NCBI RefSeq assembly: GCF_038446525.1
Contig: NZ_CP151792.1
Coordinates: forward strand, 2,852,001 to 2,916,000
Direction: 5' to 3'
DNA length: 64,000 nucleotides
DNA from: Methanolobus sp. ZRKC5
Lineage (GTDB): Archaea; Halobacteriota; Methanosarcinia; Methanosarcinales; Methanosarcinaceae
Below the pieces are notes generated by a model. It did no database searches, had not been told where the DNA came from, and was given only the letters and a program-made list of their open reading frames with translations. The position numbers were made by a program, and so were the translations under genes. The first letter of the stretch is position 1. Each line of letters starts with the position of its first letter. Below, in pieces: positions 6,832 to 52,467 of this stretch.

Positions 6832-6909
6832 GCTCCGGTAGTGTAGTCCGGCCAATCATTCCAGCCTTTCGAGCTGAAAACTCGGGTTCGAATCCCGGCC
6901 GGAGCACCA
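6832..6909 (+). tRNA. tRNA-Glu (UUC) with encoded CCA
   Basis: The acceptor stem GCTCCGG (6832-6838) pairs with CCGGAGC (6899-6905), followed by A and an encoded CCA (6907-6909). The anticodon loop CTTTCGA gives anticodon TTC, and the T-loop is TTCGAAT. The D stem and the outermost anticodon pair contain a mismatch or wobble, but the fold is otherwise canonical. No intron. Confidence 0.93.
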
Positions 6910-29837: not shown

Positions 29838-29914
29838 GGGCCCGTGGTCTAGCTGGTTATGACATCGCCTTTACACGGCGAGGATCATGAGTTCGAATCT
29901 CATCGGGCCCACCA
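29838..29914 (+). tRNA. tRNA-Val (UAC) with encoded CCA, integration target
   Basis: The acceptor stem GGGCCCG pairs with CGGGCCC, followed by A (29911) and CCA (29912-29914). The anticodon arm TCGCC-TTTACAC-GGCGA gives anticodon TAC, and the T arm is ATGAG-TTCGAAT-CTCAT. The tRNA is intact after integration because the element carries a copy of its 3' part. Confidence 0.95.
29870..29914. other. Attachment core a (attL), 3' part of tRNA-Val
   Basis: The last 45 bases of the tRNA gene, from the anticodon loop to CCA, recur without mismatch at 45635-45679 and at 53339-53383. This is the usual footprint of site-specific integration into a tRNA gene by a tyrosine recombinase. Confidence 0.93.
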
Positions 29915-30207
29915 ATAAAATCTCTTTTTACTGATATTGATTCTTGTAATAGTGATAGCTGTTTTTCTAGTGATTCTACTCTTAATTCAAGGTCTGAGTT
30001 ACTACTGGGTTGTACAACTTGCAGTTCACCATCGAATTCTTCATCTAATGATATAATAAACAAAGTCTTGCCATTGCATTCGGTTTTGAATATGTGGGCA
30101 GTTTCACCAATTAAATCTGTGTATGATTGTGGCAATCTGATCAATGGATATGTAATATTCTTTTTAGGGCTGAGCCTTGTGATTTTGGATTTACCTATGG
30201 ATTTCAT
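29870..30207 (-). CDS. Integrase N-terminal part, int(N), of a split SSV-type integrase
   Basis: Starting at 30207, this frame encodes a basic N-terminal segment (MKSIGKSKITRLSPKKN) that looks like an AbrB-type beta domain (YPLIRLPQSYTDLIGETAHIF), then a heptad coiled coil (LELRVESLEKQLSLLQESI). It then runs antisense through the tRNA repeat as GGPDEIRTHDPRRVK. In the integrated state it ends inside the tRNA gene (stop at about 29857). In the circular form it continues at 45634: 293 nt + 45-nt core + 928 nt = 1266 nt, an open frame of 421 aa. It is not an independent protein. Confidence 0.8.
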
Positions 30208-30428
30208 TAACTATTACCTTCTTAATAAGAGGTTGTTATATAATATTTATATAACCAGTGATTGATTATGATTCCAAAAATCATCAATATCTACACAAAA
30301 TAAGAAAATATTATATGCCATTGAAAAATATTAGTGAGCTAATATGCATTAATCACCATCAATTTACTGGCCCTGCATAACCCCACGAAAAATAACACAC
30401 ATTAGATAAACACAGTGGATAAAATCAT

Positions 30429-33185
30429 ATGAGTACCAATCAGAGTCCAGAGCAGAAGGCCAGAGATATCATCGATAGAAAACTTAATTCCTCTGGCTGG
30501 GCAGTGCAAGAAAGAGATAAAATCAATTGGAATGAATCCTCAGGCATTGCTATCAAAGAATACTGGACCGATGTGGGACCGGCTGATTATGTGCTTTTTG
30601 TAGAAAAATCACCTGTTGGAATCATAGAAGCAAAAAGAGAGGAAGAAGGCCATCATTTGACTGCCGTTGAAGGGCAATCTTCTGAATATGCAGCGAGCAA
30701 GCTGAAGTACCTGAATAATGATCCCCTGCCTTTTGTATATGAGAGCACGGGGGGAGTGACGAGATTCACAGATTACCGTGACCCTAAGCCAAGGTCAAGG
30801 TCTGTTTTTTCATTTCATCGACCTGAAACATTCAGAGAATATCTCAAAAAAGGACATTCTTTAAGGGAAAGGCTGCTTTCAATACCGGAGTTAAGAATTG
30901 AAGGATTACGCGATTGTCAGATTATGGCAATTAACAACCTCGAGAATTCTTTCAAGGATAATCATCCAAGGGCTTTGGTCCAGATGGCCACAGGTTCCGG
31001 GAAAACCTATACTGCTATTACTTTCATTTACCGCTTGCTAAAGTATGCGGATGCTAAGAAAATACTGTTCCTTGTTGATACCAGAAACCTTGGCGAGCAG
31101 GCAGAGCAGGAATTTATGGCTTATTTGCCAAATGATGATAATCGCAAATTCACTGAGTTGTACAATGTGCAGCGCTTGCGTTCAAAATTTATTTCTTCGG
31201 ACAGCCAGGTATGCATTTCCACTATCCAGCGTCTGTATTCCATTCTTAAAGATGAGGAACTGGATGAAGAATCTGAAATTGAGAATCCTGCCGAGAAGAA
31301 ATGGCAGCCAAAGGAACCTCTTCCTGTAGTCTATAATGAGAAAATTCCTATTGAAGAATTTGATTTTATCGTGGTTGATGAGTGCCATCGTTCCATATAC
31401 AACCTGTGGCAGCAGGTAATTGATTATTTCGATTCTTTTTTGATAGGTCTGACAGCCACCCCGGATAAACGGACTTTTGGTTTTTTCAATGAGAATGTTG
31501 TGAGCGAGTACGGTCATGAGGAAGCGGTGGCTGATGGTGTGAATGTTGGATATGATGTTTACACTATTGAAACGGAGATCACAAAGAACGGAGCAAAGAT
31601 CGACGCAAAGGAATTCGTAGACAGGCGGGAGAAACTGACCCGCAGGAAAAGATGGCAACAACTGGATGAGGACTTCAAATATAATGGTAAGCAACTGGAC
31701 AGGGATGTGGTTAACCTCAGCCAGATAAGAAATATTATACGGACTTTCAGGGATAAGCTGCCTGAAATATTCTCGGGAAGGGAAGAGGTTCCAAAAACAC
31801 TGATCTTTGCCAAGACCGATAGCCATGCGGATGATATTATCCAGACCGTCCGAGAAGAGTTCGGGGAAGGTAATGATTTCTGCAAGAAGGTTACCTACAA
31901 GGTTGAAGAAGATCCGAAGTCTGTGCTGTCGCAGTTCCGTAATGATTACAATCCAAGAATTGCTGTGACGGTGGATATGATAGCCACAGGTACGGATGTT
32001 AAGCCGCTGGAATGCTTATTGTTCATGAGGGATGTGAAGAGCAAGAACTATTTCGAGCAGATGAAAGGACGTGGAACCCGGACAATGGGATTCGATGACC
32101 TGAAGAAAGTGACACCTTCGGCGGTTTCGGCTAAGACTCATTTTGTGGTAGTGGATGCTGTGGGAGTCACTAAGTCCCTGAAGACCGATAGCAGACCGCT
32201 GGAGCGCAAGAAAGGCATTGCTTTAAAAGACCTGCTGGCAGCTGTGACCTTTGGTGCTCAGGACGAAGACCTTTACATTTCACTTGCAAGCAGGCTGGCA
32301 AGACTGAACAAGCAAATCAGCGATGAAGAGAGAGAGACATTTGCTGAAAAATCTGGTGGAAAGGATATCACTGTGGCTATCAGAGACCTGTTCAGTGCCT
32401 ACAATCCTGATATCATAGATGCCACAGCTGCCGGTATTAAGCAGCAGCAACCCCAAATGACCTTAGACGTGGCACAGAAACATGCACAACAGGAATTGAT
32501 AGATGTTGCAAGGTCAACATTTAACGGAAAACTGAATGATTATATCGAGAATGTACGCAGGGAGCATGAGCAGATCATTGATACGGTGAACATCGACAGT
32601 GTGACAACAGCCGAATGGGATAAGGATGCTGTGGCAAAAGCGGATGAACTTATCATTGACTTCAAAGCCTATCTTGAAGCCAACAGGGATGAGATAACAG
32701 CACTCAGTATATTCTACAACCAGCCCTACCAGCGCAGGGATGTCACCTTTACCATGATAAAAGAGCTGCTGGATAAGCTGAAGATGGAAAAACCCTATTT
32801 TGCACCCCAGAGGGTCTGGAAGGCTTTCGAGCAGCTTGAAAAAGTTAATGGAAAATCCCCAAAAAGCGAGCTTACAGCTCTGGTATCCCTTATCCGCAGG
32901 GTCACCGAGATAGACCCCATCCTCTCAGCCTACGACCTGACCGTGAACCGCAACTTCCAGGAATGGGTTTTCAGCAAACAGGCCGGAACCCTGAAGTTCA
33001 ATGAAGACCAGATGAACTGGCTGCGCATGATAAAGGATTACGTTACCAATAGTTTCCATCTGGAAATAGACGATCTGGATTACACACCCTTCGATGCAAT
33101 GGGTGGACGTGGCATGATGTACCAGCTTTTTGGCAATGAGATGAAAGGGATTATCAGCGAAATGAATGAAGCATTGGCGGCGTGA
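30429..33185 (+). CDS. hsdR: Type I restriction enzyme, R subunit
   Basis: A 918-aa motor and nuclease subunit that translocates and cuts unmodified DNA. The N-terminal PD-(D/E)XK nuclease is seen as DYVLFVEKSPVGIIEAKRE (residues about 53-71). The SF2 helicase follows with Walker A MATGSGKT (about 187), the DECH box VVDECHRS (about 316), LIGLTATP, and motif VI QMKGRGTRT. The C-terminal EcoEI-type domain completes the protein. It is the first gene of an hsdR-hsdS-hsdM run on the plus strand, with a 33-bp gap to hsdS. All key residues seen are intact. Confidence 0.96.
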   Translation: MSTNQSPEQKARDIIDRKLNSSGWAVQERDKINWNESSGIAIKEYWTDVGPADYVLFVEKSPVGIIEAKREEEGHHLTAVEGQSSEYAASKLKYLNNDPLPFVYESTGGVTRFTDYRDPKPRSRSVFSFHRPETFREYLKKGHSLRERLLSIPELRIEGLRDCQIMAINNLENSFKDNHPRALVQMATGSGKTYTAITFIYRLLKYADAKKILFLVDTRNLGEQAEQEFMAYLPNDDNRKFTELYNVQRLRSKFISSDSQVCISTIQRLYSILKDEELDEESEIENPAEKKWQPKEPLPVVYNEKIPIEEFDFIVVDECHRSIYNLWQQVIDYFDSFLIGLTATPDKRTFGFFNENVVSEYGHEEAVADGVNVGYDVYTIETEITKNGAKIDAKEFVDRREKLTRRKRWQQLDEDFKYNGKQLDRDVVNLSQIRNIIRTFRDKLPEIFSGREEVPKTLIFAKTDSHADDIIQTVREEFGEGNDFCKKVTYKVEEDPKSVLSQFRNDYNPRIAVTVDMIATGTDVKPLECLLFMRDVKSKNYFEQMKGRGTRTMGFDDLKKVTPSAVSAKTHFVVVDAVGVTKSLKTDSRPLERKKGIALKDLLAAVTFGAQDEDLYISLASRLARLNKQISDEERETFAEKSGGKDITVAIRDLFSAYNPDIIDATAAGIKQQQPQMTLDVAQKHAQQELIDVARSTFNGKLNDYIENVRREHEQIIDTVNIDSVTTAEWDKDAVAKADELIIDFKAYLEANRDEITALSIFYNQPYQRRDVTFTMIKELLDKLKMEKPYFAPQRVWKAFEQLEKVNGKSPKSELTALVSLIRRVTEIDPILSAYDLTVNRNFQEWVFSKQAGTLKFNEDQMNWLRMIKDYVTNSFHLEIDDLDYTPFDAMGGRGMMYQLFGNEMKGIISEMNEALAA

Positions 33186-33218
33186 AGATGGAATAAAGAG
33201 TTGTAATAAACGATTATT

Positions 33219-34733
33219 ATGGAAACAAAAGTAATTTTGACATCTGAAAAAACCAATCCCTATCAAGAAAAAAAAGGATGGGAAAAAGTGAAATTAGGTG
33301 ATATCTGCAAACTCAAAAATGGTTTTGCATTCAAAAGTTCAGAATACAAAACAGAAGGAGTTCCTGTTATCAGGATTTCAGATATAAAAGAGGCTTCTGC
33401 TACTTGTAAAAGTGCAGTTAATGTACACCCTAAATCTGAATATGAAGACTACCTGATTGAAAATGGAGACATTTTAATAGCGATGTCTGGTGCAACCACT
33501 GGGAAGTTTGGAATTTTTAAGGATAAAGTTAAAGCATATCAAAACCAGCGTGTAGGCAATTTCAAATTGATTGATAATAACTTATTGTACAAATCCTTTC
33601 TTTTTTATCAATTACACAGTCTAAAGCGAAGAATTGAGAAGGATGCTTATGGAGGAGCACAACCTAATATCTCTTCTAAAAAAATAGAAGAAATGGAAAT
33701 TATCATTGCCTCTCTCCCCGAACAACGAGCCATAGTCTCCAAAATCGAGCTTCTCTTCAGCGAACTGGACAATGGCATCGCCAATCTCAAACTGGCACAG
33801 GAGCAGCTCAAGGTGTACAGGCAGGCAGTGCTGAAGAAGGCGTTTGTGGGAGATCTTACAAGAAAATGGCGGGAGCAGCAGGTGGGTTTGCCAAGTGCAT
33901 GTGAGCTACTGGAGGAGATTCGAAGGGAGAGGGAAGAAAGTATAAAATCTACAAACAGAAGAATGAAATCTGTAGTAAAACTCAATGAAGAAGAGATTGT
34001 AGATTTACCCAAGATTCCAGTTGGGTGGAAATGGGTCAAATTACAGGAATTATGCAATCTCAGAGGTGGAGTGACTAAAGGTCGAAAGTTAGAAGGGAAG
34101 AAAAAAATATCTTTGCCTTATTTGAGGGTTGCAAACGTTCAAGATGGCTATTTAGACCTTTCTGAAATAAAATATATTGATGTTTTGGAAGGAGATTTAG
34201 AGAAATATCGCCTAATTAAAGGAGATATATTATACACTGAAGGTGGAGACAAAGACAAACTTGGAAGAGGAACCATCTGGAAAGAACAAATCGAAGATTG
34301 TATCCATCAAAATCATGTTTTTCGTGCAAGACCATATTCAAAAAACCTTGTATCTGCATACATCGGCTATTTTTCACAAACACAAACAGCCAAGAGATAT
34401 TTCTTTAAAAATGCAAAACAAACAGTCAATCTTGCTTCAATAAATCTTACAGTACTTTCAAATCTACCTTTCCCTTTCTGCCTCCTCCCCGAGCAACAAG
34501 CCATCGTCAGTGAAATCGAAACGCGCCTTTCGGTCTGCGATAAAATGGAACAGGACATTGCGGAGAATCTGGAAAAGGCCGAGGCTCTTAGGCAGAGTAT
34601 CTTGAAAAGGGCGTTTGAGGGGAAACTGCTCAATGAGAGGGAGTTGGAGGAAGTGAGGAATGCGCCTGATTGGGAACCGGCTAATCTTTTGTTGGAGAGA
34701 GTGAAGACTGAGAAAGCAGAAAGTGGGAAGTAA
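33219..34733 (+). CDS. hsdS: Type I restriction-modification specificity subunit
   Basis: A 504-aa DNA-recognition subunit with two target-recognition domains (about 20-165 and 270-430). Each is followed by a conserved helical spacer (LPEQRAIVSKIELLFSELD at about 168, and LLPEQQAIVSEIETRL at about 426) and a matching tail (VLKKAFVGDLT / ILKRAFEGKL). The first domain begins VKLGDICKLKNGFAFKS and the second WKWVKLQELCNLRGG. The two recognition domains have lower GC than the spacers, as is common for exchanged specificity domains. It lies between hsdR and hsdM. Confidence 0.95.
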   Translation: METKVILTSEKTNPYQEKKGWEKVKLGDICKLKNGFAFKSSEYKTEGVPVIRISDIKEASATCKSAVNVHPKSEYEDYLIENGDILIAMSGATTGKFGIFKDKVKAYQNQRVGNFKLIDNNLLYKSFLFYQLHSLKRRIEKDAYGGAQPNISSKKIEEMEIIIASLPEQRAIVSKIELLFSELDNGIANLKLAQEQLKVYRQAVLKKAFVGDLTRKWREQQVGLPSACELLEEIRREREESIKSTNRRMKSVVKLNEEEIVDLPKIPVGWKWVKLQELCNLRGGVTKGRKLEGKKKISLPYLRVANVQDGYLDLSEIKYIDVLEGDLEKYRLIKGDILYTEGGDKDKLGRGTIWKEQIEDCIHQNHVFRARPYSKNLVSAYIGYFSQTQTAKRYFFKNAKQTVNLASINLTVLSNLPFPFCLLPEQQAIVSEIETRLSVCDKMEQDIAENLEKAEALRQSILKRAFEGKLLNERELEEVRNAPDWEPANLLLERVKTEKAESGK

Positions 34734-34816
34734 ACGAGCAAATTAATTACATCCATTAACTATCGACTTTGCGAAAAAGCATCAAATATATCAGTTTATT
34801 ATCAAGGGTCCAAAAA

Positions 34817-36307
34817 ATGTCTGAAAATACATCATCCATCGTATCCAAAGTGTGGAGCTTCTGTCATGTACTGCGTGACGGGGGAGTGAGCTATGGTGAC
34901 TATCTGGAACAGCTGACTTTTCTCATATTCCTGAAGATGGCAGAGGAGTACAGGAAGCCTCCTTATGGCCGGGATATTGGAATCCCTGAAGAATATACAT
35001 GGGATGTCTTGAAGCAGAAGCGGGGTGCTGAGCTTGACACCCATTACAAGAACCTGCTGGAGGAGCTTGGCAAGAAGCCGGGGATGCTCGGGCAAGTTTT
35101 CCTCAAGGCCCAGAACAAGATAAGCGACCCTGCAATGCTGTACAAGGTCATCGATATGATCGACAAGGAAAGCTGGGTCATGATGGGTGTTGACACCAAG
35201 GGCGAGATATACGAAGGACTCTTGCAGAAGAATGCAGAGGATACAAAAAGTGGAGCCGGGCAGTATTTCACACCCCGCCCTCTCATCAAGACCATGGTGG
35301 AGTGTCTGCAACCGCAGCCCATGAAGACAATAGGTGACCCCTGCTGTGGTACAGGCGGGTTCTTTTTGGCAGCCTATGATTTCCTTACATCACATGAGCA
35401 ACTGGATCGGGAGCAGAGCAGGTTTTTGAAGAACAAGACCTTTGGAGGCAACGAGATAGTAGCCGGAACACGAAGGTTGGCACTGATGAACCTCTTCCTG
35501 CATAACATCGGAGAGATTGACGGGCAGCCCATGATATCCAATTCCGATGCACTCATAGCCGATTCAGGGGAGCGCTATGATTACATCTTCACCAATCCAC
35601 CCTTTGGTAAAAAGAGCAGCATGACCTTCACCAACGAAGAAGGAGGACTGGAAAAAGAGGATCTGACCTACAACCGTCAGGACTTTTGGGTCACCACCAG
35701 CAACAAACAACTCAACTTTGTGCAGCACATCCACACCATCCTCAAAACCGGTGGCCAGGCAGCAGTTGTATTGCCGGACAACGTACTGTTCGAGGGTGGA
35801 GCCGGGGAGACCATACGCAAGAAACTCCTTGAGACCACCGACCTGCACACCATACTGCGCCTTCCAACTGGCATATTCTACGCCCATGGAGTGAAGGCTA
35901 ACGTCTTATTCTTCGAAGCAAAGGAAGCAGCTAAAGACCCTTGGACAAAGGAGGTCTGGATATATGACTACCGTACCAATGTCCATCACACGCTGAAAAA
36001 GAGTCCGCTGAAGTTCTCAGACCTTGAAGATTTCATCCAGTGCTATAATCCGAAGGACCGCCACAAGCGTGTTGAAAGCTGGAGCGAGGACACCCCAGAG
36101 GGAAGGTTCCGCAAGTTCAGCTACGATGAAATCATTGCAAGGGACAAGACCAATCTGGATATATTCTGGCTCAAGGACAAGAGCCTTGCAGACTTGGATA
36201 ACCTGCCAGATCCAGATGTGCTTGCAAATGAGATAATAGAGAACATCGAAGCATCACTGGAAAGTTTCAAGGAAATCATGGAGACCATTAATTCAAATGG
36301 GGAATGA
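34817..36307 (+). CDS. hsdM: Type I restriction-modification methyltransferase subunit
   Basis: A 496-aa N6-adenine methyltransferase. It has the N-terminal HsdM domain (YGDYLEQLTFLIFLKMAEEY), GQYFTPRPLIKTMV, the SAM-binding DPCCGTGGFFLAA and the catalytic NPPF motif in DYIFTNPPFGKKSS. The ATG at 34817 with AAGGGT upstream is chosen; a TTG at 34769 would add 16 residues. It methylates the host to protect it from HsdR, and HsdS provides sequence specificity to both. Confidence 0.96.
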   Translation: MSENTSSIVSKVWSFCHVLRDGGVSYGDYLEQLTFLIFLKMAEEYRKPPYGRDIGIPEEYTWDVLKQKRGAELDTHYKNLLEELGKKPGMLGQVFLKAQNKISDPAMLYKVIDMIDKESWVMMGVDTKGEIYEGLLQKNAEDTKSGAGQYFTPRPLIKTMVECLQPQPMKTIGDPCCGTGGFFLAAYDFLTSHEQLDREQSRFLKNKTFGGNEIVAGTRRLALMNLFLHNIGEIDGQPMISNSDALIADSGERYDYIFTNPPFGKKSSMTFTNEEGGLEKEDLTYNRQDFWVTTSNKQLNFVQHIHTILKTGGQAAVVLPDNVLFEGGAGETIRKKLLETTDLHTILRLPTGIFYAHGVKANVLFFEAKEAAKDPWTKEVWIYDYRTNVHHTLKKSPLKFSDLEDFIQCYNPKDRHKRVESWSEDTPEGRFRKFSYDEIIARDKTNLDIFWLKDKSLADLDNLPDPDVLANEIIENIEASLESFKEIMETINSNGE

Positions 36308-36405
36308 AAAAGTCATGCAGATGAACCTGCATGATTTCTAGTCCAGTTTGATGTAAGTATATGGTCAGTATTTTATAATTACAAATGAACTGCTTTCCAA
36401 CGTGG

Positions 36406-37383
36406 TCAATTACAAAAACTGCAGCGAACGCCAACATGCATATTTCCCTCTTCTTTTATATACCCCAAATTCAATAATATTTTGGATGTTATTTCATTTG
36501 GGGATTCAATAACAAACTTAGTATTTTCAGATTCAATTTCAAATGTTTTCTCAATTAACTGTGTTCCCAGGCCACCTTTTCTGAATTCTTTTCTTATGAA
36601 TATTTGCCTCAAACATCTTTTTTTATCATTGAAATCATTCCAAAAGATATATCCAGCAGGTATTTTTTCATCTGTAATTATATATAATTCGGCATTTTTT
36701 ACATGGAGGTCTAGTTTTCGAAATGACGTATCTTCTGTTTTTGCTATAACATTAAGCTGGCCTAGTAACATTTGATTTTTATTCAAATCGATCCTATGAA
36801 CGGCTATACTTTCTGAAATAATAAAATATTCTTCACTTTGAAACGCTTTATTAATAACGTCCTCCACAAAATATGTCATATGATCATTTTTATTGGGACA
36901 CATGACAATATTCTTTCCGCATAAAAGTGTAGAAACCACGCTATTCTCTTTACAGTTTTCAACTTCTTCACCACAAACCGGACATATAAAATAACCTTTG
37001 TATGGTTCAATATGTAAATCGAAAAATAAGCAAGACGATAAATGCCAATTGGGAGATATATGGTAACAAAAATAAGGATTTAATGCATGCGATGCCTCTA
37101 AGTGATTGATTATATCATTCTGAACTTTTAAACCAGTTTTCTTTATTGATTCATTTGGATACTGACCGTAGTTTGAATATTCCATAGAAAACTTCATACT
37201 CGGTTCATCCATATTCATGACAAAATCTAAGTTTAATTCTGGGTTCAAACGATGATTTTCATTGAATCCGGCCTCCGCTATATCCTTAATTTTACATATT
37301 AAGTTTCTTAAAAAATGTTTGTTGCTTCTGCCGTATATTTTTTCCCCTGCAAATAAAATATTCCCCTCTTCCATGTTAATCAC
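36406..37383 (-). CDS. GNAT-like acetyltransferase with an internal zinc-ribbon, unknown role
   Basis: A 325-aa protein. The N-terminal 110 residues are not recognised. A zinc-ribbon-like segment follows (CPVCGEEVENC near 136 and MCPNKND near 160). The C-terminal part looks like a GNAT N-acyltransferase: the AcCoA-binding helix RKEFRKGGLGTQLIEKTFE, then FVIESPNEITSKILLNLGY, ending in CSFCN. The start may be GTG 37383, directly at the previous stop, or ATG 37374. It is the last gene of a tight three-gene run with 37384-37862. Confidence 0.7.
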   Translation of the reverse strand: MINMEEGNILFAGEKIYGRSNKHFLRNLICKIKDIAEAGFNENHRLNPELNLDFVMNMDEPSMKFSMEYSNYGQYPNESIKKTGLKVQNDIINHLEASHALNPYFCYHISPNWHLSSCLFFDLHIEPYKGYFICPVCGEEVENCKENSVVSTLLCGKNIVMCPNKNDHMTYFVEDVINKAFQSEEYFIISESIAVHRIDLNKNQMLLGQLNVIAKTEDTSFRKLDLHVKNAELYIITDEKIPAGYIFWNDFNDKKRCLRQIFIRKEFRKGGLGTQLIEKTFEIESENTKFVIESPNEITSKILLNLGYIKEEGNMHVGVRCSFCN

Positions 37384-37590
37384 TTACTCCCCTTTATCGT
37401 AAATGTCGTCATCTTTGTCATTTGGAGCAACTACATTGATGATTACAATTTTATGGTGTGGATGCTCCTGCTTGTACTGTTCTATTTCTTCATCCAGCTC
37501 ATGGTCAATATTCACAAATGCTTTGAATTTTCCTCGACTATGTTTCTGTTCGATTGCTCCCATCCTTTTTTTGATATCTGCAAAAGTCAT
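37384..37590 (-). CDS. Small acidic hypothetical protein
   Basis: A 68-aa protein, MTFADIKKRMGAIEQKHSR at the start, rich in charged residues, with one possible strand (HKIVIINVV) near residue 45. No family recognised. Its start overlaps the stop of the upstream gene by 4 bp, and its stop touches the start of the GNAT-like gene, so all three are translationally coupled. Confidence 0.65.
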   Translation of the reverse strand: MTFADIKKRMGAIEQKHSRGKFKAFVNIDHELDEEIEQYKQEHPHHKIVIINVVAPNDKDDDIYDKGE

Positions 37591-37862
37591 GTACTACCAT
37601 CCTGTCCTGCTGATTCGAGCACATCCAATCTTACCTTGATTTCTTCCAGTTCCTGGTCCTTCAGGACTGAGTTATGTGCCTGTATAGCCTGAACCAGTGC
37701 TCGAACATATTGCAGTTTCACATTGTCTCCGTCACGTACTTTGAACCTGGCAACATCCAGCCTCATTCGAAGAGATTCCACTAGCCAGGAAGATATATCC
37801 ATTAATTGTGCACGATCAATATTTTTACGAATTACAGTTGTATTATCACTTGTTTCAGACAT
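37587..37862 (-). CDS. Small helical hypothetical protein
   Basis: A 91-aa, mostly helical protein from the ATG at 37862, which follows GAGG; a start 21 codons upstream is possible but less well placed. It contains AQLMDISSWLVESLRMRLD and VKLQYVRALVQAIQAHNSVL. No family recognised. First of the three coupled genes on the minus strand, downstream of the replication gene. Confidence 0.65.
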   Translation of the reverse strand: MSETSDNTTVIRKNIDRAQLMDISSWLVESLRMRLDVARFKVRDGDNVKLQYVRALVQAIQAHNSVLKDQELEEIKVRLDVLESAGQDGST

Positions 37863-37969
37863 TATACCTCGCTCCTCTTTTCTTTTGATTATGCTATGTC
37901 TCTTATCTGTTGGAAAAATTACCACATCGTGGTTAATTGTTGATTATGATCGCTTGGGAGTGTTCAGTA

Positions 37970-40633
37970 TCACCCCCTGATATCTTTATTATTGGAATTC
38001 TTGGCCTGACGTTCTTTCCACAATCGAGAATAACACAATATGCAGATGTGCTTGCATCCAGTATTATCGTGTATCGCCACGAACCCCCATTTTTTCTCGC
38101 CACATTCTTGACATGTGCGATATTTGGTCACAACAGAATCTTCTTGGTCATATGAAGGACACAAGGATTTATTTTCATTATCGTAATCAATGCCTTCATT
38201 TTTTTCGTTGATCACATTGGTCATATCATTTTGCACTATTTTTTCTACTATACCACTACTAACACAATTACTACTATCTTGTCTCGGATTATTAATTATT
38301 AAAGATTTGTTATGACCAGAATGCTCAATTGTATCATCAGTATCGGGAAAAACAGATTTTTTTTTTATGACCGGGTCCTGACCGCCTCCTCTTTTGATGT
38401 GACCATTCTCACGGGAATTTTCGTATGCTTCTATTTCCTGCTCAGCATTGAGGCCATGCCACCCGTTCTTCAATTCATATCCTTTATAGCATGTTAGGCG
38501 GACCTTGTTCACATATGGTCTTGTGGATATTATCTCGCCCTTGTATAACCCTCTGAATTTCTTGCCGAACACTCTTCTATCTATAACTGTGATATTGTTC
38601 AGTCGGCAGTACCGAATGTTAGCTGCATAGACTTCATCTATTGGTACTTCATTATCCTCACTCAGATGGCCACATTCATCTGCAAAAGCAGCTATTGGAT
38701 TGGATCTCTCTTGTGTATACGTCCGTGTTTTGCGAATACCCATAGAACACGAAAAATCACCCCTTTCCAAAAGAGCAGGCAAAACTTCCATGCACCTATT
38801 GAATATGCCTGACAGCTCCTCTGGGGTCGTCAATTTCTTGTAATAATCAAGTTCCGTGCATTCGTTACCAACTACACGCCTTTTAAACGGTATTAAAAGA
38901 AATCGCCTGTACCAGCTATCACTGTTATCCAGCGATTCAGGTATATAGTTCATGGAGAATACCATCTTTGAACGGTTGATAAATTTGAACGGTTTCCCAT
39001 ATATTTTCCTTGCAGTGACCTCATCCCCGCCGGTTAGTGATTTCACTGTACTGGTATCCTTAAGCTGCTGGTTTGACATATCGCCACATACATTCATAAG
39101 TTTTCCAAACAGCTCAGCTTTGGAATAACGATCATTTTCTATGTCCTGCATAGAAAGTGAAGACACGTTTTTTGACCCATACATGGCAGTGTTCACCTGA
39201 AGGTACACACCTTTACCATTACCACCATCTCCGTGCAGGTACAGAAACTTCTGAATCGGATATCCCGGAACAAAGCCATAAGCAATCCATTCGTATGCCG
39301 TGGCAATATACTCTGGCTCCAGCACTTCATTCAGAAAAGTATCGAATTGCGGACATGTTGCATTCCTATCATATGGGAATGGCAAAACATATGTAAATCT
39401 GTCCTCATGGCTGTGTGCACGGAAGTCGCGAGAGTATATATTATAGACACCGTTCTGGAGATTGATTTCTCCTGTTTGCTTGTCAAATACACTACGTTCT
39501 TCCAGAGTATCGTTTTTGATGTAAAACAGGGTTTCAGCAACCCTATGCTTTGTACTATCTTTCCCCAGCAATTCCTGTGCACGAGCCATTATCAGGTTGT
39601 CAGCACCTTCTTGGTAATATCTGCCATTCCAGTACACAGATGCACGGTCATCGTTAAAGGTGACTATATTCATCTCCTTCATGAGCGCCTTGGCCAACTC
39701 GGAAGGGAGGAATTTTCCTTTCTCACCGAAGAGTACACATCCTCCAGCACCATCTTGATTTTGCATACAAGGATTGTATACTTCTGTTAAACCGCCGATG
39801 GATGTTTGTATAGTCCTGCCCCTGTAATCACTGCGTTCCCACTTTGACCTGTATAGCTTCGATTTTCTGAACAGTCGATCTATCTGTGCGGAATTCTGGG
39901 TATAGAAAGCTAGAATAGTGCATAATGCCAAATCTGCCCTACTATCATCATTTTCGTGGCCTGATGTGCTACCATCCCATAATTCTTCGAATTTGTTGGC
40001 ATTCTTTGCTCCCATGCATAGTGAAAAGATTTCTTCGTCTGTAAGCGGAGGAGATACCTTTCTGCCACCCACAGGTTTACTTGTTTCCATTTTCTCCTTT
40101 TCATCTGGAGCAATTTTGTGGTATATGGATTTTAGAACTTCAGATGATGCGGGTTTTATTTCGAATGGCGTATTTTCAAGGTGATTCCCCGTCATCACGA
40201 AGAAACGTTCCTTATCGTACATTTCCCTGCAACCAGACCTACAGCGTTCCCCTGGTTTCTTTCCTACAGTTATAACATGCAGTCCCGTACCACTCTGTGA
40301 TATTTCCGCATAGCTGTCCAAGTCACGGATCTCTTGTATAACCTCAGGGTCAATATCTCCTGTTTCAGGATCCCTGACATTATCCCAGTCAACACCTATG
40401 TAGTCATCATCTTCTGAGAAAACAAATCCTATCCCATGATACAATCCAGTCTCAAGTGCTTCGATACAATTATCAAACATGTTCCATGTATCTGAATCAG
40501 TAGCACTGGCTCGAATATTATCAACCGTATACGGAATCTTTGAAGGCTTAGCCTGCTCAGGTCTATACTCCAGTTTCCACATTACCCATTGTGGAAGCTC
40601 ATTTAATTCAGGAGGAAAATTGTTGAAATTCAT
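37970..40633 (-). CDS. Replication protein: primase-polymerase fused to an SF3 helicase
   Basis: An 887-aa multidomain protein. The N-terminal archaeo-eukaryotic primase domain (about 1-190) carries the metal-binding GVDWDN and the ISQSGTGLHVI block. A PriCT-type linker follows (about 200-290, with NKFEELWDGSTSG). A D5_N-type region and SF3 ATPase come next (about 350-640), with Walker A LHGDGGNGKG near 470, then MNVCGDMSNQ and VFSMNYIPE. The C-terminus ends in a zinc ribbon (CQECGEKKWGF, then CKHICILC). This architecture initiates and unwinds plasmid or viral DNA. It is the probable replicon gene of the integrated element. Confidence 0.88.
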   Translation of the reverse strand: MNFNNFPPELNELPQWVMWKLEYRPEQAKPSKIPYTVDNIRASATDSDTWNMFDNCIEALETGLYHGIGFVFSEDDDYIGVDWDNVRDPETGDIDPEVIQEIRDLDSYAEISQSGTGLHVITVGKKPGERCRSGCREMYDKERFFVMTGNHLENTPFEIKPASSEVLKSIYHKIAPDEKEKMETSKPVGGRKVSPPLTDEEIFSLCMGAKNANKFEELWDGSTSGHENDDSRADLALCTILAFYTQNSAQIDRLFRKSKLYRSKWERSDYRGRTIQTSIGGLTEVYNPCMQNQDGAGGCVLFGEKGKFLPSELAKALMKEMNIVTFNDDRASVYWNGRYYQEGADNLIMARAQELLGKDSTKHRVAETLFYIKNDTLEERSVFDKQTGEINLQNGVYNIYSRDFRAHSHEDRFTYVLPFPYDRNATCPQFDTFLNEVLEPEYIATAYEWIAYGFVPGYPIQKFLYLHGDGGNGKGVYLQVNTAMYGSKNVSSLSMQDIENDRYSKAELFGKLMNVCGDMSNQQLKDTSTVKSLTGGDEVTARKIYGKPFKFINRSKMVFSMNYIPESLDNSDSWYRRFLLIPFKRRVVGNECTELDYYKKLTTPEELSGIFNRCMEVLPALLERGDFSCSMGIRKTRTYTQERSNPIAAFADECGHLSEDNEVPIDEVYAANIRYCRLNNITVIDRRVFGKKFRGLYKGEIISTRPYVNKVRLTCYKGYELKNGWHGLNAEQEIEAYENSRENGHIKRGGGQDPVIKKKSVFPDTDDTIEHSGHNKSLIINNPRQDSSNCVSSGIVEKIVQNDMTNVINEKNEGIDYDNENKSLCPSYDQEDSVVTKYRTCQECGEKKWGFVAIHDNTGCKHICILCYSRLWKERQAKNSNNKDIRG

Positions 40634-40734
40634 ACCAACCTCTCCATAAAAAAGCAGTTAATGGCTCACTTATAGCCTTGACAAAGCTCTTATTTCGATA
40701 AAAGAGCGAAGATTCTATAATATGAGAGGTTGTA

Positions 40735-40944
40735 TTATTCATTGGCACTCCTCTTGGGATGTGTCTGAACTCCAGTTACCTTTTGATCTTGGCGGGTCGA
40801 GGTAACTGGTGTCATAACAATTTTGTTCTCATTCAATTCAATGTCCATAACAGTTCCTTTTTCAATCCCCATTAATGCACACAAATGTGCGGGAATTGTT
40901 ACAAGGTGACTATCTTTTATTTGTTGTACATTTCGTCTCAACAT
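40735..40944 (-). CDS. AbrB/SpoVT-type DNA-binding regulator
   Basis: A 69-aa swapped-hairpin transcription factor. QQIKDSHLVTIPAHLCALMGIEKGTVMDIEL is the typical AbrB pattern (hydrophobic strands around V-T-I-P and G-x-x-x-G-x-x). It is divergent from the following plus-strand genes and 101 bp upstream of the replication gene, which it may repress. It could also be an orphan antitoxin; no toxin gene is adjacent. Confidence 0.82.
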   Translation of the reverse strand: MLRRNVQQIKDSHLVTIPAHLCALMGIEKGTVMDIELNENKIVMTPVTSTRQDQKVTGVQTHPKRSANE

Positions 40945-41031
40945 ATGTATATCTCCATATAGAGATTGGTGTACAGGTATATAAATGTAAAAAAGTTAAA
41001 AAATGGTGCTATACAATGGTATTGGTTTAGT

Positions 41032-41748
41032 TAAAAATATAAACAATGTTATGAAAGACTGGAAAATTATAACATCTCCCACACAGAAGAAATTAAGTTA
41101 GATTCTTGCAGTAGACTTTGCTTGGAGGTTGATTCAACTGAAAATATTGGAGATCTAATTATTGATGGTATAAAAGATTGTGATAGTCCAATTTTGTATA
41201 CTTGTTTGGTTGATTTACTATATGAAAAGTGTACGGTTAAAATTCATGGAGACAATGACCCTGAAAGCTTGAAGAAAAAGGTTAAGAGCCAGCTAAAAAA
41301 TTTACTCAACTGTTTTGATGATCCAAACGGCTTTTTGGAATACAATGATGGTTCAAATTCAAAAGATAACAGTCCTGGATATAATTCTGAAAAATACCTC
41401 CAAGAAATCCTTGATAATCCTTCATCTAACATAATAATTATTAATCAACCTGAAGACAACTTGGGTAATAAGTTCATAGCAGAAAAATTGGTGAATTTTA
41501 TTAGAGAACTAAAGTTTGAAAAACAGCTATTTCTAGTGACACACAACCCTGCAATTGTTGTTTATGGAGATGCTGAATCAATTATTTGTGCTCAAAATGA
41601 TAACAACATGATTTCGTACAAACAAATAAAGCTTGAAGATGTATCCTCTCAAAAAGAAATTTGTAGTATATTGGATGGTGGCGAATACATATTTGATAAC
41701 AGGGCGAGAAAATACAACATTCAAAAATTATTATACAAAGGTGAATGA
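41032..41748 (+). pseudogene. C-terminal remnant of a TrlF-type SMC-like ATPase
   Basis: An open frame from 41032 without a clear start codon, coding-like to 41748. It contains the ABC/SMC-type Walker B and H-loop pattern IIIINQPEDNLGNKFIAEKLV and FLVTHNPAIVVYGDAESII, then DILEGGE-like CSILDGGEYIFDNRARKYN. This matches the end of TrlF-family ATPases, but the Walker A half, several hundred residues, is missing. The typical acidic residue in Walker B is Asn (NQPED). I call it a truncated remnant. The broken small gene after it belongs to the same module. Confidence 0.65.
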
Positions 41749-41749
41749 C

Positions 41750-42055
41750 ATGGATACAATCACAATTAGTGCGTCTATCGAAGATTAAGATTTGATTCTT
41801 TCTTTTGAACCTAAAAGTGAAAGAAAAGAAAAAATAAAAATTAAAACAGGTGGAGATGTTGATTTTTCAGAATATGTAGAAGAGTTGACTTATCTTATTG
41901 CTGAGAAACCGAAGCTAATTTTTGATTCTTGTGACACTGATGATTCAAAGTTTACTCTTGTACAAGATACAATAAGTGATATTGTCAAATCGTTTAATGA
42001 AAGTATTGATGGAGAAGATGAACAAATCGGTGATGAAAATTCATTCAATGATTAG
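41750..42055 (+). pseudogene. Small partner gene of the TrlF remnant, interrupted by an in-frame TAA
   Basis: The ATG at 41750 starts one base after the TGA of the preceding gene and reads MDTITISASIED, then TAA (41786-41788). The same frame continues as DLILSFEPKSERKEKIKI to 42055, 87 codons more. The continuous frame and tight spacing suggest one original gene of about 101 aa broken by a nonsense mutation. A short protein from the TTG at 41792 is conceivable. Pyrrolysine read-through does not apply because the stop is TAA, not TAG. Confidence 0.6.
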
Positions 42056-42365
42056 AGTATCTCTTTAAATGTTTTAGTATTTTATGACGTAAACATGTAA
42101 TCTTAAACAAAAATAGTTGTAATTATGGGTTTAAATACAAAATTCCCACAACTCACCTGCACCCTCAAATCATATCTAAAATTGAATCATCGCTACATTT
42201 GAATACACCTGGATGAGGAGGGATATATATAACGTGAAAATTGTATGTCATAACAAGGTTAATTAATTGAGAATCTAATCTTTATCATACCTTTAAGAAT
42301 CCGATTGTATGGTGTACTAATAATTATAGGCAACTAATAATGTTTTTTATAATATTAAAGAAGTT
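42056..42365. other. AT-rich gap of 310 bp before the ATPase/HNH pair
   Basis: No convincing ORF. A TATATATAAC stretch near 42225 could be a promoter for the pair starting at 42366, but the distance is long. Otherwise nothing is visible. Confidence 0.4.
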
Positions 42366-43826
42366 ATGATTAGTGATAAAATGAAAAATGAATCTTTTAG
42401 ATTAATTAAACTTGAAATCGAAAATCATCAATTTCTTAATAAAATAAGTATTGATTTTATTGAAGATAAAAAATATTCTAATCACTTGAACAATCCATTT
42501 ACTACTCTTATCATCGGATCAAATGGTACCGGAAAAAGTCAGATATTAAGGATAATTATTGACATATTTAAAGAATTGGAATCACATAAGTATCCTGACA
42601 AAGAATTACGAACACGTCGTATACCAAAATATAATTATGAACTAAAATATCAAATAAATGATAATGTTTACGTTGTTGCAAGCAGAGGGAAGGCTAATAA
42701 AAAATGCTTAAAGAACTATGAAGTCATTAAAATTGATAATTTAGAGTTGCCAAACAGACTATTAGCTTCTTCTTTTATGGTTAACGATAAACACTTGTAC
42801 AGTAATAATGATTTTTATAAGTACCTTGGGATTAGATCGGTAGAAAATGCAGCATTTACAAAAGGTTTTGCAAAAAATGTAGCAAACGAAATTTTGGAAG
42901 CTACAGATAGATCTACATTTATTTGTAACCTAAAGAAAACATTAGAGTTTTTAGGATATGATCATTTTTTAAAAATAACATATAAGTTAAGAATCCCAAA
43001 GAGATTACGCGAAGAAGCAAGTATAGAAAACCTCCATTCCTATTTAGAAACAAAATCTAATAGTCAAGCACCTCTGTCTACAATATATAAAAGTTTGACA
43101 AATGAAGAAATACAGAATATTATAAGGTTGCTTAATAATCGTGCAAATGATAAATTTATTGAATACAACATATTATCTGAAAATGGATTTAATAAAAATC
43201 ATCAAAAAGAGCATGAATTACTGCAGGTTCTACAGAAATTAAGGCTGGTTTCGTCCCCAGTTATCGAAGTAAAAAAAGGACAGACATTTGGTTTAACTGA
43301 TGCTAGTTCAGGTGAATCACATTTTATCTTTTCAATGTTTAGAATAATAGCAAACATAAAAGATAATTCATTAGTTTTAATTGATGAACCTGAAATCAGT
43401 TTACATCCAAACTGGCAAATGAAATATATATATGCTTTAAACAATATTTTTTCAAACTATTCATCCTGCCACTTTATTTTGGCAACACATTCTCATTTTA
43501 TGATATCAGATCTTGAAAAGGATTCATCTTCAATAATTACATTGAGATTTGAATCGGATAAAGGAATTCAAGCTATCACTCATAAAGAGAATACATATGG
43601 TTGGACCGCAGAAGACATTCTATATAATGTCTTTAAAGTGCCAACAATAAGAAATTACTATTTAGCAAATGAAGTGGGAGAAATACTCTCAGCGATAAGT
43701 CAAAAAAATAGAGATATTGATGAAATTGAAAAAAGAGTTAGGAAGCTAAAAGAAATCAATACCAACTTAAAAGAAATCGATCCTATGAAGAGAATTATTG
43801 ATAAGATTATTGGGAAGTTTGATTGA
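42366..43826 (+). CDS. AAA/ABC-type ATPase, Septu PtuA-like
   Basis: A 486-aa ATPase of the SMC/RecF-like class. It has an N-terminal recognition strand (FRLIKLEIENHQFLNKISID), Walker A IIGSNGTGKSQ (about 52-60), the signature-like SSGESHFIFSMF, Walker B LVLIDEPEISLHP (about 340) and H-loop FILATHSHFMISD. The C-terminal GWTAEDILYNVFKVP and RNYYLANEVGEIL resemble PtuA-type ATPases of Septu defence systems. The HNH nuclease gene starts two bases after its stop. No strong ribosome binding site is seen; ATG 42366 or 42381 could be the start. Confidence 0.75.
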   Translation: MISDKMKNESFRLIKLEIENHQFLNKISIDFIEDKKYSNHLNNPFTTLIIGSNGTGKSQILRIIIDIFKELESHKYPDKELRTRRIPKYNYELKYQINDNVYVVASRGKANKKCLKNYEVIKIDNLELPNRLLASSFMVNDKHLYSNNDFYKYLGIRSVENAAFTKGFAKNVANEILEATDRSTFICNLKKTLEFLGYDHFLKITYKLRIPKRLREEASIENLHSYLETKSNSQAPLSTIYKSLTNEEIQNIIRLLNNRANDKFIEYNILSENGFNKNHQKEHELLQVLQKLRLVSSPVIEVKKGQTFGLTDASSGESHFIFSMFRIIANIKDNSLVLIDEPEISLHPNWQMKYIYALNNIFSNYSSCHFILATHSHFMISDLEKDSSSIITLRFESDKGIQAITHKENTYGWTAEDILYNVFKVPTIRNYYLANEVGEILSAISQKNRDIDEIEKRVRKLKEINTNLKEIDPMKRIIDKIIGKFD

Positions 43827-43827
43827 A

Positions 43828-44445
43828 ATGGTTCTTATTAAAACTCCCTATTCTTATACAAAAACTGATTTAAAAACATTGAGTATGGTTCATCCAGATA
43901 ATTATCGGAATTGGAAAAAAAAAGAGTATAAGAATGTTAAAAAAAATATTAAACATTATTTGTACTCTGAACAAAAAGGTATTTGCCCCTTTTGCCGATC
44001 CAAATTAAATATCAAAGATAAAGAAAATACAACAATTGAACATATTGCACCAAAATCAAAGCATCCTAAATTTATGTTCGAACCAAGGAATTTAGCCGTC
44101 TGTTGTTATAAGTGCAACAACAGTAAAAAAAATGAAGATACATTAAAAGATGGGTGTACCACAAATACTTACCCTAAAGAAAGTCAATGTTTTACTATTA
44201 TCCATCCTCATTATGATATTTACTCTGATCATGTCAGAATTGAAGATGATATTTTTTTGCGGTTAGTTACTTCAAAAGCTGAAAAAACTTTTGAGATATA
44301 TGATCTGAATTTGTTACAAATAACAGAAGAAATGATAGTCAATTCATCAATTCAAAATCAACCTGACGAATATGTAAAATGGTCAATGCAATTAGCAAAA
44401 AATGAAAATAATGATGTTCCCGATTCAATATTCAATTTATTCTAA
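43828..44445 (+). CDS. HNH endonuclease, Septu PtuB-like
   Basis: A 205-aa nuclease from the ATG at 43828. The HNH core is held by zinc cysteines CPFCRSKLN and CCYKCNNSKK, with the catalytic IEHIAPKSKHP and the Asn of EPRNLAVCC. This E-H, N and paired CxxC arrangement fits the McrA/PtuB type. It is translationally coupled to the ATPase gene, as in known Septu operons where ATPase and nuclease form one complex that cuts phage DNA. That function is inferred from layout and motifs. Confidence 0.78.
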   Translation: MVLIKTPYSYTKTDLKTLSMVHPDNYRNWKKKEYKNVKKNIKHYLYSEQKGICPFCRSKLNIKDKENTTIEHIAPKSKHPKFMFEPRNLAVCCYKCNNSKKNEDTLKDGCTTNTYPKESQCFTIIHPHYDIYSDHVRIEDDIFLRLVTSKAEKTFEIYDLNLLQITEEMIVNSSIQNQPDEYVKWSMQLAKNENNDVPDSIFNLF

Positions 44446-44706
44446 AATACTGTTGCATTTTTCAATAAAAAAGGTATGCTTTTTGCCAATTCCAAAGTTA
44501 TTAGCATACTCCTCATAGTCGCAGATACATTGACAGGCATTATAAATATACGGAATAAACAATACTTGCTAAGTACACAGAGATAGAATTCAGGGTATGA
44601 TTCTACCTTTATACTAATACCATGATTTGATAAGATAATGCATTGTACTACTCATATTATGAATCACACTTTGTAGGTATGAAATGTTCCAGCTGTTCTA
44701 TGTGTT

Positions 44707-45679
44707 CTAATTCTCTTCTCCATGAGTATTTCCTAGCTTGAAGTTAATTTGTCCAGATTGATCATCAACTATAAACTTCCCCACAATCCTCCTGTATTCT
44801 TCCTTCGCTCTTTTTACCTTATTCAAATAATGAGCACTGCCCACAGTCACAGGTGCCCTACCCTGAATAAAATCAGCAATACTCTCAGTCACACCTTCAG
44901 CTACCATCAAGTTAAGATGCCATTTACGAATGGTCTTTGAAGAAACACGATCATGCTTTGTCTTCTTCAGCAAGGAATCATAAGAATATAGATTATTGAA
45001 TTCTCTGAGCTCAGGGACAAAAGATGTTGGAAAGAATATCTGGAATGTTCGCTTTGTGCCACTTGAAAAGGAAGATGTTGGATAATGGGCAATATCACCA
45101 TCAATTACTATGTTGCGTTCATTGAAGTTTTCCAGCATAGCATGAATGTGGCTAAGTCGATTACCTGAGTATATCAGTAATTTTAAGATCGGTTTAACAT
45201 CCTCTGCACACGCATTGTATGCTTCCTGTACCTCTTCATCTGTAACATAGATTTCAACCACACCAGATTGCTTGATCTTGATGAATCTTCTCCATTTCTC
45301 AATGCTGTAGTTAGCCACATCATCGATATCTTCTTCTTCAAAGTAGTTCAAGAGATTTCGAAGTCCACGCTCTGCCTTATCGCCAAGTTGCTTTGTACGA
45401 AAGTCCTGTGGTCTGTGGACAATTGTAGTGTCGAAGAATTTGATTAGGGATCTGTAATAGTCTTTTTTGGTTCTTTCAGAGATACTTCTTGAATATAGCC
45501 AATCCTTGAAAGAATCTCTATGGTGGGCCCACATATCATTTAATAAAGCAGGTTGCAGTTTTTCCCCCGCAGTAGGTTGATTTCTGCCTTGACATTCGAG
45601 GGAATATACCTCGGAATCGCTATCAATGGCCTTCTTTACACGGCGAGGATCATGAGTTCGAATCTCATCGGGCCCACCA
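44707..45679 (-). CDS. Integrase catalytic part, int(C), of the split SSV-type integrase
   Basis: The tyrosine recombinase catalytic part, open from the attachment core (GGPDEIRTHDPRRVK) through DSFKDWLYSRSISERTKKDY (core-binding domain) to the catalytic domain. Likely active-site residues: Arg in YSGNRLSHIHAM, His in RKWHLNLMVAEG, Arg in FIQGRAPVTVG, and Tyr in SAHYLNKVKRA. A start at ATG 45534 would give 275 aa without the N-terminal part. Joined to 30207-29915 through the core it makes the full 421-aa integrase. It is about 90% identical to the second integrase at 52468. Confidence 0.85.
45635..45679. other. Attachment core b (attR of the 15.8-kb element)
   Basis: An exact 45-bp copy of the 3' part of tRNA-Val, lying within the integrase frame. 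It is the right boundary of element 1 and the left boundary of the next att-bounded segment. Confidence 0.92.
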
Positions 45680-45828
45680 TACTTCTTTTCCGATTCTAAG
45701 CTCTTAGAGAGTTTCTTTTCGTCAATCTCACAATGCGTAATGGAGTGGATATGGGCGTCTAGATGAGGCGGGGTTTGAATATGACTGGATTCAGCGTTAA
45801 TAGTATTGTCTTTGGATACTAATTTTAT
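45680..45828 (-). pseudogene. Remnant of a second integrase N-terminal part
   Basis: In the frame that leads into core b, the minus strand is open from 45828 (after a TAA) and reads QTPPHLDAHIHSITHCEID and KKLSKSLESEKKYGGPDE. The pattern HxxTHCxxDxKK and SEKxxGGPDE matches the region preceding cores c and d in the second integrase. No start codon remains. It is the int(N) side of the segment between cores b and c. Confidence 0.5.
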
Positions 45829-45846
45829 TTAATTAATATGTTGAGT

Positions 45847-48800: not shown

Positions 48801-48925
48801 ACCAATGTCAATAGCTGGTGTTGGGTATATTTTCTTTTAGAATATTTACAACTATAAATCTGAAGGTGTGAGTTTCCTGATACAGCTAGCGCTGTATCAA
48901 CAAACTTTAAGTACTTGTTAGGCAA
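45847..48925 (-). CDS. IS5-family (ISH1-like) transposase in two exons split by a group II intron
   Basis: Exon 1 (48925-48140, 262 codons) and exon 2 (45975-45847, 42 codons plus stop) join in frame when the intron 45976-48139 is removed: EDIRAK then [12 protein letters not shown]. The 304-aa product has the DDE motifs of IS5: [21 protein letters not shown] and [18 protein letters not shown]. Without splicing, translation stops at the first intron codons (GTG TGA). The C-terminus reads through the IS end ([13 protein letters not shown]). Confidence 0.85.
46017..46050 (-). ncRNA. Group II intron domain V, copy 1
   Basis: The 34-nt catalytic hairpin: GAGCCGTATG pairs with CGTACGGTTC around a GAAA-containing distal part, and includes the AGC catalytic triad near the 5' end. 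It is followed by a domain VI-like stem and the intron 3' end at 45976. Confidence 0.85.
46075..47589 (-). CDS. ltrA: Group II intron reverse transcriptase/maturase, copy 1
   Basis: A 504-aa intron-encoded protein that helps splicing and reverse-transcribes the intron into new DNA sites. It has RT blocks [20 protein letters not shown] (with the first catalytic Asp), [15 protein letters not shown], and the [10 protein letters not shown] active site, then the maturase X domain ([30 protein letters not shown]). The C-terminus ends without an HNH endonuclease domain, so it is an En-minus form. The ATG at 47589 follows GGAGG at the right distance. Confidence 0.92.
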   Translation of the reverse strand: MNARYSTTPSGERLADNSIPFKWEDIDWKTVEGNVNELQARIVKAVRQKKWHLVKRLQYLLTNSFHAKLLAVKKVTQNKGKRTAGIDGEKWTTSKSKMKAVLELSGKSYKAKPLRRIYIEKQGKKKKRPLSIPTMYDRAMQALYAFALSPIAETTADRTSFGFRKYRSSKDAEAQLFACLSKRNSAQWILEGDIKGCFDHINHEWLLNNIPMDRSILKQFLKAGFVYNRHLNPTKAGTAQGGIISPVLANITLDGMKNAIACKYHTNRKGTINKKSYNSHKVNFVRYADDFIVTADSEEVAKDIAEVIRLFLKDRGLELSREKTLVSHIDDGFDFLGWNFRKYNGKLLTKPSNKSIENITKSISNVIKKGKARSQSSLIKELNPIITGWSEYHRSVVSKNTFSKLDSRLWDMLWTWAKRRHPDKSHHWIVDRYWHRVGSRKWVFSTEGLKLKSFAHTKIVRHPRIKMDKNPYVDKEYFKWRISYLRKQKLVASKQNIMESLTTA

Positions 48926-49041
48926 AACACAATCATCCCCTTTTGTGTTTCTATCGCAAGTAATAATCAGGGGATTTATCCTTTTTAAATTATTATGCTA
49001 AAATAAAATGTGAAGTAGGTTTTCTACAGAGCCCAAAACAT

Positions 49042-49167
49042 GGCTCTGTAGAAATCCTCGATATTTGGTCGATGATTTGAGTATTCAATAATTTGAAATG
49101 TATTACTCAATTGTGGTAATAACTACCTAGTTTGCCCTGTTGATATTGATAGTTTTTCTACAGAGCC
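49042..49167. mobile_element. 126-bp miniature element with IS5-type ends
   Basis: GGCTCTGTAGAAA at 49042 and TTTCTACAGAGCC ending at 49167 match the IS5-like element's termini but enclose only about 100 bp of AT-rich sequence with no coding. The neighbouring IS inserted immediately next to its left end. No target duplication of its own is evident. It is a MITE or an internally deleted IS. Confidence 0.6.
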
Positions 49168-49273
49168 ATCACAAGCATATTTCAAATAACTTAGTTTATA
49201 TCAAAAAAGAAAGGTATGGTCTTAAGGTTCCTCTTAGGACCATTCTTCATATTTGCTCTGTTAAGGCTGAATC

Positions 49274-52348: not shown

Positions 52349-52467
52349 GACATTCTAATAATTTATAGATACTCTTGTGCATGTCTATATATATTAACAT
52401 TTCTATTAAATTATCGGAAGTAACATTTCGATATCTCAACAAGAATCCCTTAGAATATGTTTAATTT

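Follow-up and report, generated by a model that had tools for sequence, protein, structure and literature searches.

The locus described here raises two questions: whether an ATPase gene and an HNH nuclease gene carried by a mobile element in a methanogenic archaeon constitute a genuine Septu defence system, and what such a system would recognise in a host of this kind. The window, i.e. the whole stretch of DNA analysed, comprises 64,000 nucleotides of Methanolobus sp. ZRKC5 (contig NZ_CP151792.1, positions 2,852,001 to 2,916,000). The genome, a single contig of 3.05 Mb, encodes methyl-coenzyme M reductase (PF02249, 1.1e-63; 2 of 14 control genomes match, both of them methanogens). It also has three rRNA genes that align end to end with the archaeal SSU model, a model which several bacteria match too. 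The gene pair is, very probably, a complete type I Septu borne by an archaeal integrative element (Table 1). Systems of this kind are well known from bacteria; the one described here is complete and unremarkable as a type I Septu, but its host is uncommon.

Table 1 Features of the Septu-bearing element and of the element adjoining it (positions in the window)
Feature	Position	Strand	Description
Integrative element with the Septu pair	29869..45679		in tRNA-Val(TAC), 15.8 kb, bounded by exact 46-nt repeats
46-nt repeat, 3' part of tRNA-Val(TAC), exact copies	29869-29914; 45634-45679; 53338-53383		no match in 100 shuffles
Type I restriction-modification R, S, M	30429..36307	+	PADLOC REase_I 7.6e-49, Specificity_I 8.5e-97, MTase_I 1.3e-195
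R; S; M	30429-33185; 33219-34733; 34769-36307	+	all open ORFs
Primase-helicase (P4/D5 type)	37970..40633	-	TIGR01613 1.4e-55; phrog_1829 3.2e-131
TrlF-like ATPase, C-terminal remnant	41122..41748	+	NCBIfam NF045780 6.9e-33
ptuA	42366..43826	+	ABC/Rad50-like ATPase, 486 aa, ATG start, open frame
ptuB	43828..44445	+	HNH nuclease, 205 aa, ATG one base past the PtuA stop
Integrase (Phage_integr_3 family), near the right end of the element	44707..45534	-	PF16795 2.1e-39; phrog_5127 integrase 1.1e-40
Second element, between the second and third repeat copies	45634-53383		adjoins the first, same tRNA-Val repeat
Group II intron RNA	45976-46052; 47941-48102	-	flanks the reverse transcriptase ORF, same strand
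Reverse transcriptase ORF	46075-47619	-	group II intron maturase domain (GIIM 1.1e-23)
DDE transposase ORF	48134-48925		in the second element
Second integrase copy	52468-53241		90% identical to the first, one internal stop

A first-pass annotation, made from the letters of the DNA alone, had proposed a coupled ATPase and an HNH nuclease with paired cysteines in the organisation of PtuA-PtuB, and the present analysis bears out this proposal. The ATPase carries a Walker A motif (GSNGTGKS, residues 51-58), a signature (SSGE, 314-317), a Walker B motif (LIDEPE, 338-343) and an H motif (ATHS, 373-376), whose residues show little or no variation when 60 relatives are aligned; the invariant columns include N53, K57, S314, G316, D340, E341, P342, H347 and H375. 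In PtuB, compared with 61 relatives, C53, C56, H72, N88, C93 and N97 are invariant and C96 is nearly so. The ptuB gene more probably starts at the ATG at 43828 than at the listed TTG at 43798, and the two genes then abut; the family profile scans of PtuB were run on the longer form.

An HMM search and a structural comparison, two of the checks that had been suggested for the pair, both led to the same family. The PADLOC model PtuA1 (PDLC00265) matched PtuA at 1.4e-115 in a single aligned stretch covering nearly the full length (residues 11-481), and PtuB1 (PDLC00325) matched PtuB at 2.7e-46 over nearly its whole length; E-values of the order of 1e-115 and 1e-46 exclude chance. The AlphaFold2 models of PtuA (pLDDT 90.8, pTM 0.90) and PtuB (pLDDT 89.7, pTM 0.81) were compared with the PDB. 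The top 20 entries for PtuA, with Z 18.2-21.7, were all PtuA or PtuA-containing complexes from Septu or type I-A retrons. Rad50 came after them (17.6), and one extra retron chain (9l7p_B, 16.5) ranked below Rad50. For PtuB the 11 best matches were chains of PtuA-PtuB complexes (Z 9.6-12.0), headed by 8eea_G, a chain from E. coli Septu, at 12.0, and the HNH domain of Cas9 came next at 6.6. The identity to solved PtuA and PtuB in the structural alignments was about 16-22%, and phmmer found no match to PtuB among PDB sequences at 0.01. The rmsd values of the full-length alignments were high (6.2 angstrom over 172 residues with 8eea_G, others up to about 10) and in Foldseek the TM-scores to PtuA and PtuB entries were low, about 0.35-0.55, which fits distant relatives with moving domains.

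A different pair was also considered, in which an unrelated HNH enzyme stands next to an ATPase of the OLD or PARIS type or to a repair ATPase resembling Rad50. Rad50 and AriA folds do reach Z scores of 16-17.6 against the PtuA model, and Pfam gives just general domains above or near the cut-off for the two proteins (AAA_15 and AAA_21, and HNH). However, PtuA structures and PADLOC PtuA models rank first, with matches that span almost all of the protein, and the resemblance of the second gene to PtuB continues past the HNH core. We therefore regard a different pair as very improbable.

One earlier suggestion found no support, namely that divergence in the middle region of the ATPase leaves room for a new subtype. 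Across residues 201-300 the mean identity of the window protein to 60 relatives is 17%, compared to 22% among the first 30 relatives mutually, and in most regions the window protein lies a few points below the relatives' own identity. Judged from these alignments, poor conservation of the middle region is a property of the whole family, bacterial PtuA included, and PDLC00265 aligns through the region without interruption.

The gene order is that of the family. Genome contigs of bacteria and archaea, scanned with a PtuA profile, gave at least 519 confirmed relatives, of which the best 80 were used; all 80 are bacterial records, and in all 80 the end of PtuA is followed, at no more than 400 bases, by the start of a match to a PtuB model (1e-3 or better; the model was made from eight pairs, the window included). 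Among these 80 the PtuA frame is broken in two, and in one the contig ends inside PtuB. The same PtuA-PtuB order is seen in seven neighbourhoods from plasmids or phages that were retrieved by similarity, one of them with PtuA and PtuB annotated as Septu by the depositor. In viral_contigs the profile scan found 147 PtuA relatives. A search by exact peptide words from this one protein recovered no relatives in genome_contigs or viral_contigs, where the profile scans did find some. Variation on the two-gene theme was also seen. On a Mesobacillus foraminis plasmid (L005, 3167-6804) PtuA has about 275 extra N-terminal residues and the PtuB-like protein, of 440 aa, has a long C-terminal extension. 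On a Pseudomonas aeruginosa plasmid (L007, 365-4997) a gene for an 850-aa ABC/RecF-like ATPase overlaps the ptuA start by 4 bases, an arrangement that is possibly a three-gene Septu variant.

PDLC00265 at 1e-30 matched 1 of the 392 genomes of an archaeal phylum sample, the window's own, and of 27 genomes of the genus 1 gave a match to the PtuA protein itself. The PtuB alignment matched 5 of the 392 phylum-sample genomes at 1e-10 and, at 1e-5, 2 of 111 genomes of the family. One of the five (L246) has an adjacent PtuA-PtuB pair matching other PADLOC models (2e-156 and 4.5e-70), and the same holds for a further genome of the family (L004; 1e-173 and 2.1e-65). In the three remaining PtuB-positive genomes no PtuA was seen on the short stretches at the loci checked (five of eight). 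The idea of a unique archaeal occurrence was dropped, as L246 and L004 carry Septu pairs of other subfamilies; since pairs of other models occur in archaea, archaeal Septu as such is not new. Type I Septu is among the systems most widespread by phylum according to the PADLOC authors (PMC8565338). Within the set of papers searched, a whole-word match found none on Septu in archaea or methanogens; absence from print is not claimed.

PtuA and PtuB also occur as the effectors of type I-A retrons (Septu type II), in which a reverse transcriptase and msDNA hold them. An ORF for such an enzyme, a reverse transcriptase, is found 1.6 kb from ptuB, and the fold search matches retron PtuAB complexes as well. 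This ORF, however, bears the maturase domain of group II introns and is flanked on the same strand by group II intron RNA; it lies outside the right repeat, which ends at 45679, on the strand opposite to ptuA, whereas Septu type II, as defined by PADLOC, requires a reverse transcriptase gene before ptuA (PMC8565338). Upstream of ptuA are the TrlF-like remnant, an AbrB/MazE-like gene and the primase, and no reverse transcriptase is among the matches listed for the 13 element ORFs scanned with PADLOC, Pfam and NCBIfam. The NCBIfam models for the PtuA and PtuB effectors of retron Ec78 score 75.7 bits against a cut-off of 500 and 47.7 against a cut-off of 150, so far under that the pair is not an Ec78-type effector. 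The retron reading, extremely improbable on this evidence, was dropped, and the nearby reverse transcriptase is assigned to the group II intron. As the sole reverse transcriptase seen in the vicinity is an intron ORF outside the element, we assign the pair to type I.

The first-pass annotation had also seen a small defence island in the combination of the Septu genes with a type I restriction system. This is supported; the R, S and M ORFs are open and belong to the same element. Further cargo consists of a GNAT-domain protein and the AbrB/MazE-like protein. The TrlF-like remnant covers just positions 840-944 of the 944 in NF045780 (114 bits, cut-off 350), which looks like the partial replacement of a previous defence cargo. 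In the interval 41122-42055 this fragment is followed by a small 87-aa ORF of no clear family, and the rest of the TrlF-like gene is missing. At 53364-53604 there are two copies, 90% identical and 141 nt apart, of a 100-nt stretch that begins inside the tRNA repeat, which is perhaps a trace of further integration.

Of the 111 genomes of the family, 31 have an integrase match at 1e-20, a count that includes the genome of the window. Eight neighbourhoods of related integrases were taken, and the tRNA-Val(TAC) gene was found in two of them. Ten ORFs were picked by eye from six of these neighbourhoods, and 7 of the 10, from four neighbourhoods, matched defence models at 1e-10; the cargo of L273, L275, L277 and L278 comprised PDC-S39, an Nsn-like nuclease, Gabija and an OLD-like ATPase with type I restriction. 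Such a selected sample of sequences indicates merely that elements of this kind can carry defence genes.

By analogy with bacterial Septu, an oligomer of PtuA would hold the PtuB nuclease, in a 6:2 complex of PtuA and PtuB according to the table of a review (PMC12948488). Infection would release or activate PtuB, which would cut nucleic acid and so stop virus growth, probably at the cost of the infected cell. In the E. coli Septu EcB88, substitution of K43 or D316 in PtuA, or of H75 or N91 in PtuB, is described as abolishing immunity (PMC13096335). The likely counterparts are K57, D340, H72 and N88; the H-N spacing is 16 residues in both PtuB proteins, H72/N88 here and H75/N91 in EcB88.

What the nuclease would cut is a separate matter. 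EcB88 is described as cleaving tRNA-Tyr upon infection, in the long variable arm (PMC13096335). In another source (PMC11555353) the PtuAB of retron-Eco7 depletes tRNA-Tyr also, that of retron-Eco4 probably does not target tRNA, and nicked DNA is given as the target of the Septu of E. coli ATCC 25922. The review (PMC12948488) has Septu degrade the phage genome and the PtuAB of Ec83 degrade single-stranded DNA. Since the published targets differ between tRNA-Tyr and DNA, the target cannot be read from family membership. In a survey of the host tRNA set, RF00005 gave 46 matches and 40 distinct tRNA sequences were parsed, the tRNA-Glu of the window at 6832 being left out; tRNA-Trp and some isoacceptors were not seen among these 40. 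One tRNA-Tyr was found, by ARAGORN with introns allowed; it was not reported by Rfam at the gathering threshold. It bears an intron and has a variable region of 5 nt, compared to 13 nt in the tRNA-Tyr of E. coli K-12 by the same measure, and thus the one host tRNA-Tyr found does not offer the long arm of an EcB88-like substrate. Long variable regions do occur in the parsed set in tRNA-Ser (16, 17 and 20 nt) and tRNA-Leu (14, 14 and 16 nt); for Val(cac) and Arg(tct) the lengths obtained seem to be artefacts of the parsing.

With tRNA-Tyr lacking the long arm, the Septu, if it is a tRNA nuclease, would have to recognise another tRNA or another feature, or else it may cut DNA; we infer this from a substrate feature that is absent from the host. 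It is conceivable, though rather doubtful, that the system works in the archaeon on a nucleic acid other than tRNA-Tyr, for example the long-armed tRNA-Leu or tRNA-Ser, or viral DNA. If so, PtuB would change its target to fit the tRNA set of the host. A clue from tRNA-Tyr decoys was left unused: human and S. aureus tRNA-Tyr both failed in phage rescue from retron-Eco7 (PMC11555353), and as both failed, short and long arms are not separated by the result.

As to origin, PtuA was placed in a tree of 70 rows, made by a quick method with SH-aLRT values only; besides the window protein all rows are bacterial, L246 and L004 having been left out. The window PtuA falls in a set of 27 rows from Bacteroidota, Bacillota and others (SH-aLRT 98), on a long terminal branch of 0.98 changes per column. 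In the PtuB tree no starred set contains the window protein. The G+C content is 27-30% at 41-44 kb, compared to 32-51% elsewhere in the element, measured in steps of 1 kb. Together these data suggest, weakly to moderately, a transfer of the Septu pair from bacteria; the direction is read from the nesting of PtuA in a bacterial set and from the low G+C, and from nothing else, and the suggestion is limited because the PtuA tree holds no other archaeal row.

Another reading is that the Septu moved in from bacteria and is no longer functional in the archaeon, its decay being yet to come. The low G+C and the bacterial placement of PtuA would agree with this, as would the remnant state of the adjoining TrlF-like gene and the absence of a long tRNA-Tyr arm from the host. 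On the other hand, both frames are open and the catalytic residues conserved in the family are retained, and the combination of a long end branch with intact genes suggests selection, albeit with the lineage in between unsampled. We thus consider a non-functional Septu unlikely.

The locus offers a well-bounded archaeal Septu that shares its tRNA-Val element with type I restriction genes, while the experiments cited for the family are bacterial. It is of interest mainly because nature here provides a test of Septu recognition, in a host whose tRNA-Tyr lacks the arm that is cut in E. coli.

One of the closest known systems is the type I Septu of E. coli (8eea, EcB88), with which the pair shares the two-gene order, the folds, the Walker A and B motifs, the signature and the HNH residues, and which likewise stands alone without a reverse transcriptase. 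The pair differs in its identity of about 20% to the 8eea chains in structural alignments, in its archaeal host and in that host's tRNA-Tyr without the long variable arm that EcB88 cuts. With the PtuA-PtuB of type I-A retrons (Ec78/Eco7 and Ec83/Eco4) it has the effector folds and the gene order in common; the element, however, showed no reverse transcriptase of the retron kind, and the pair scores far below the cut-offs of the NCBIfam Ec78 models. The PADLOC model PtuA1 (PDLC00265) is the best profile for PtuA, and PtuA proteins of Bacillota and Bacteroidota are the nearest rows of the tree, although identity is at most 37% among the 70 tree rows; a partial match in viral_contigs reaches 46% over 156 residues.
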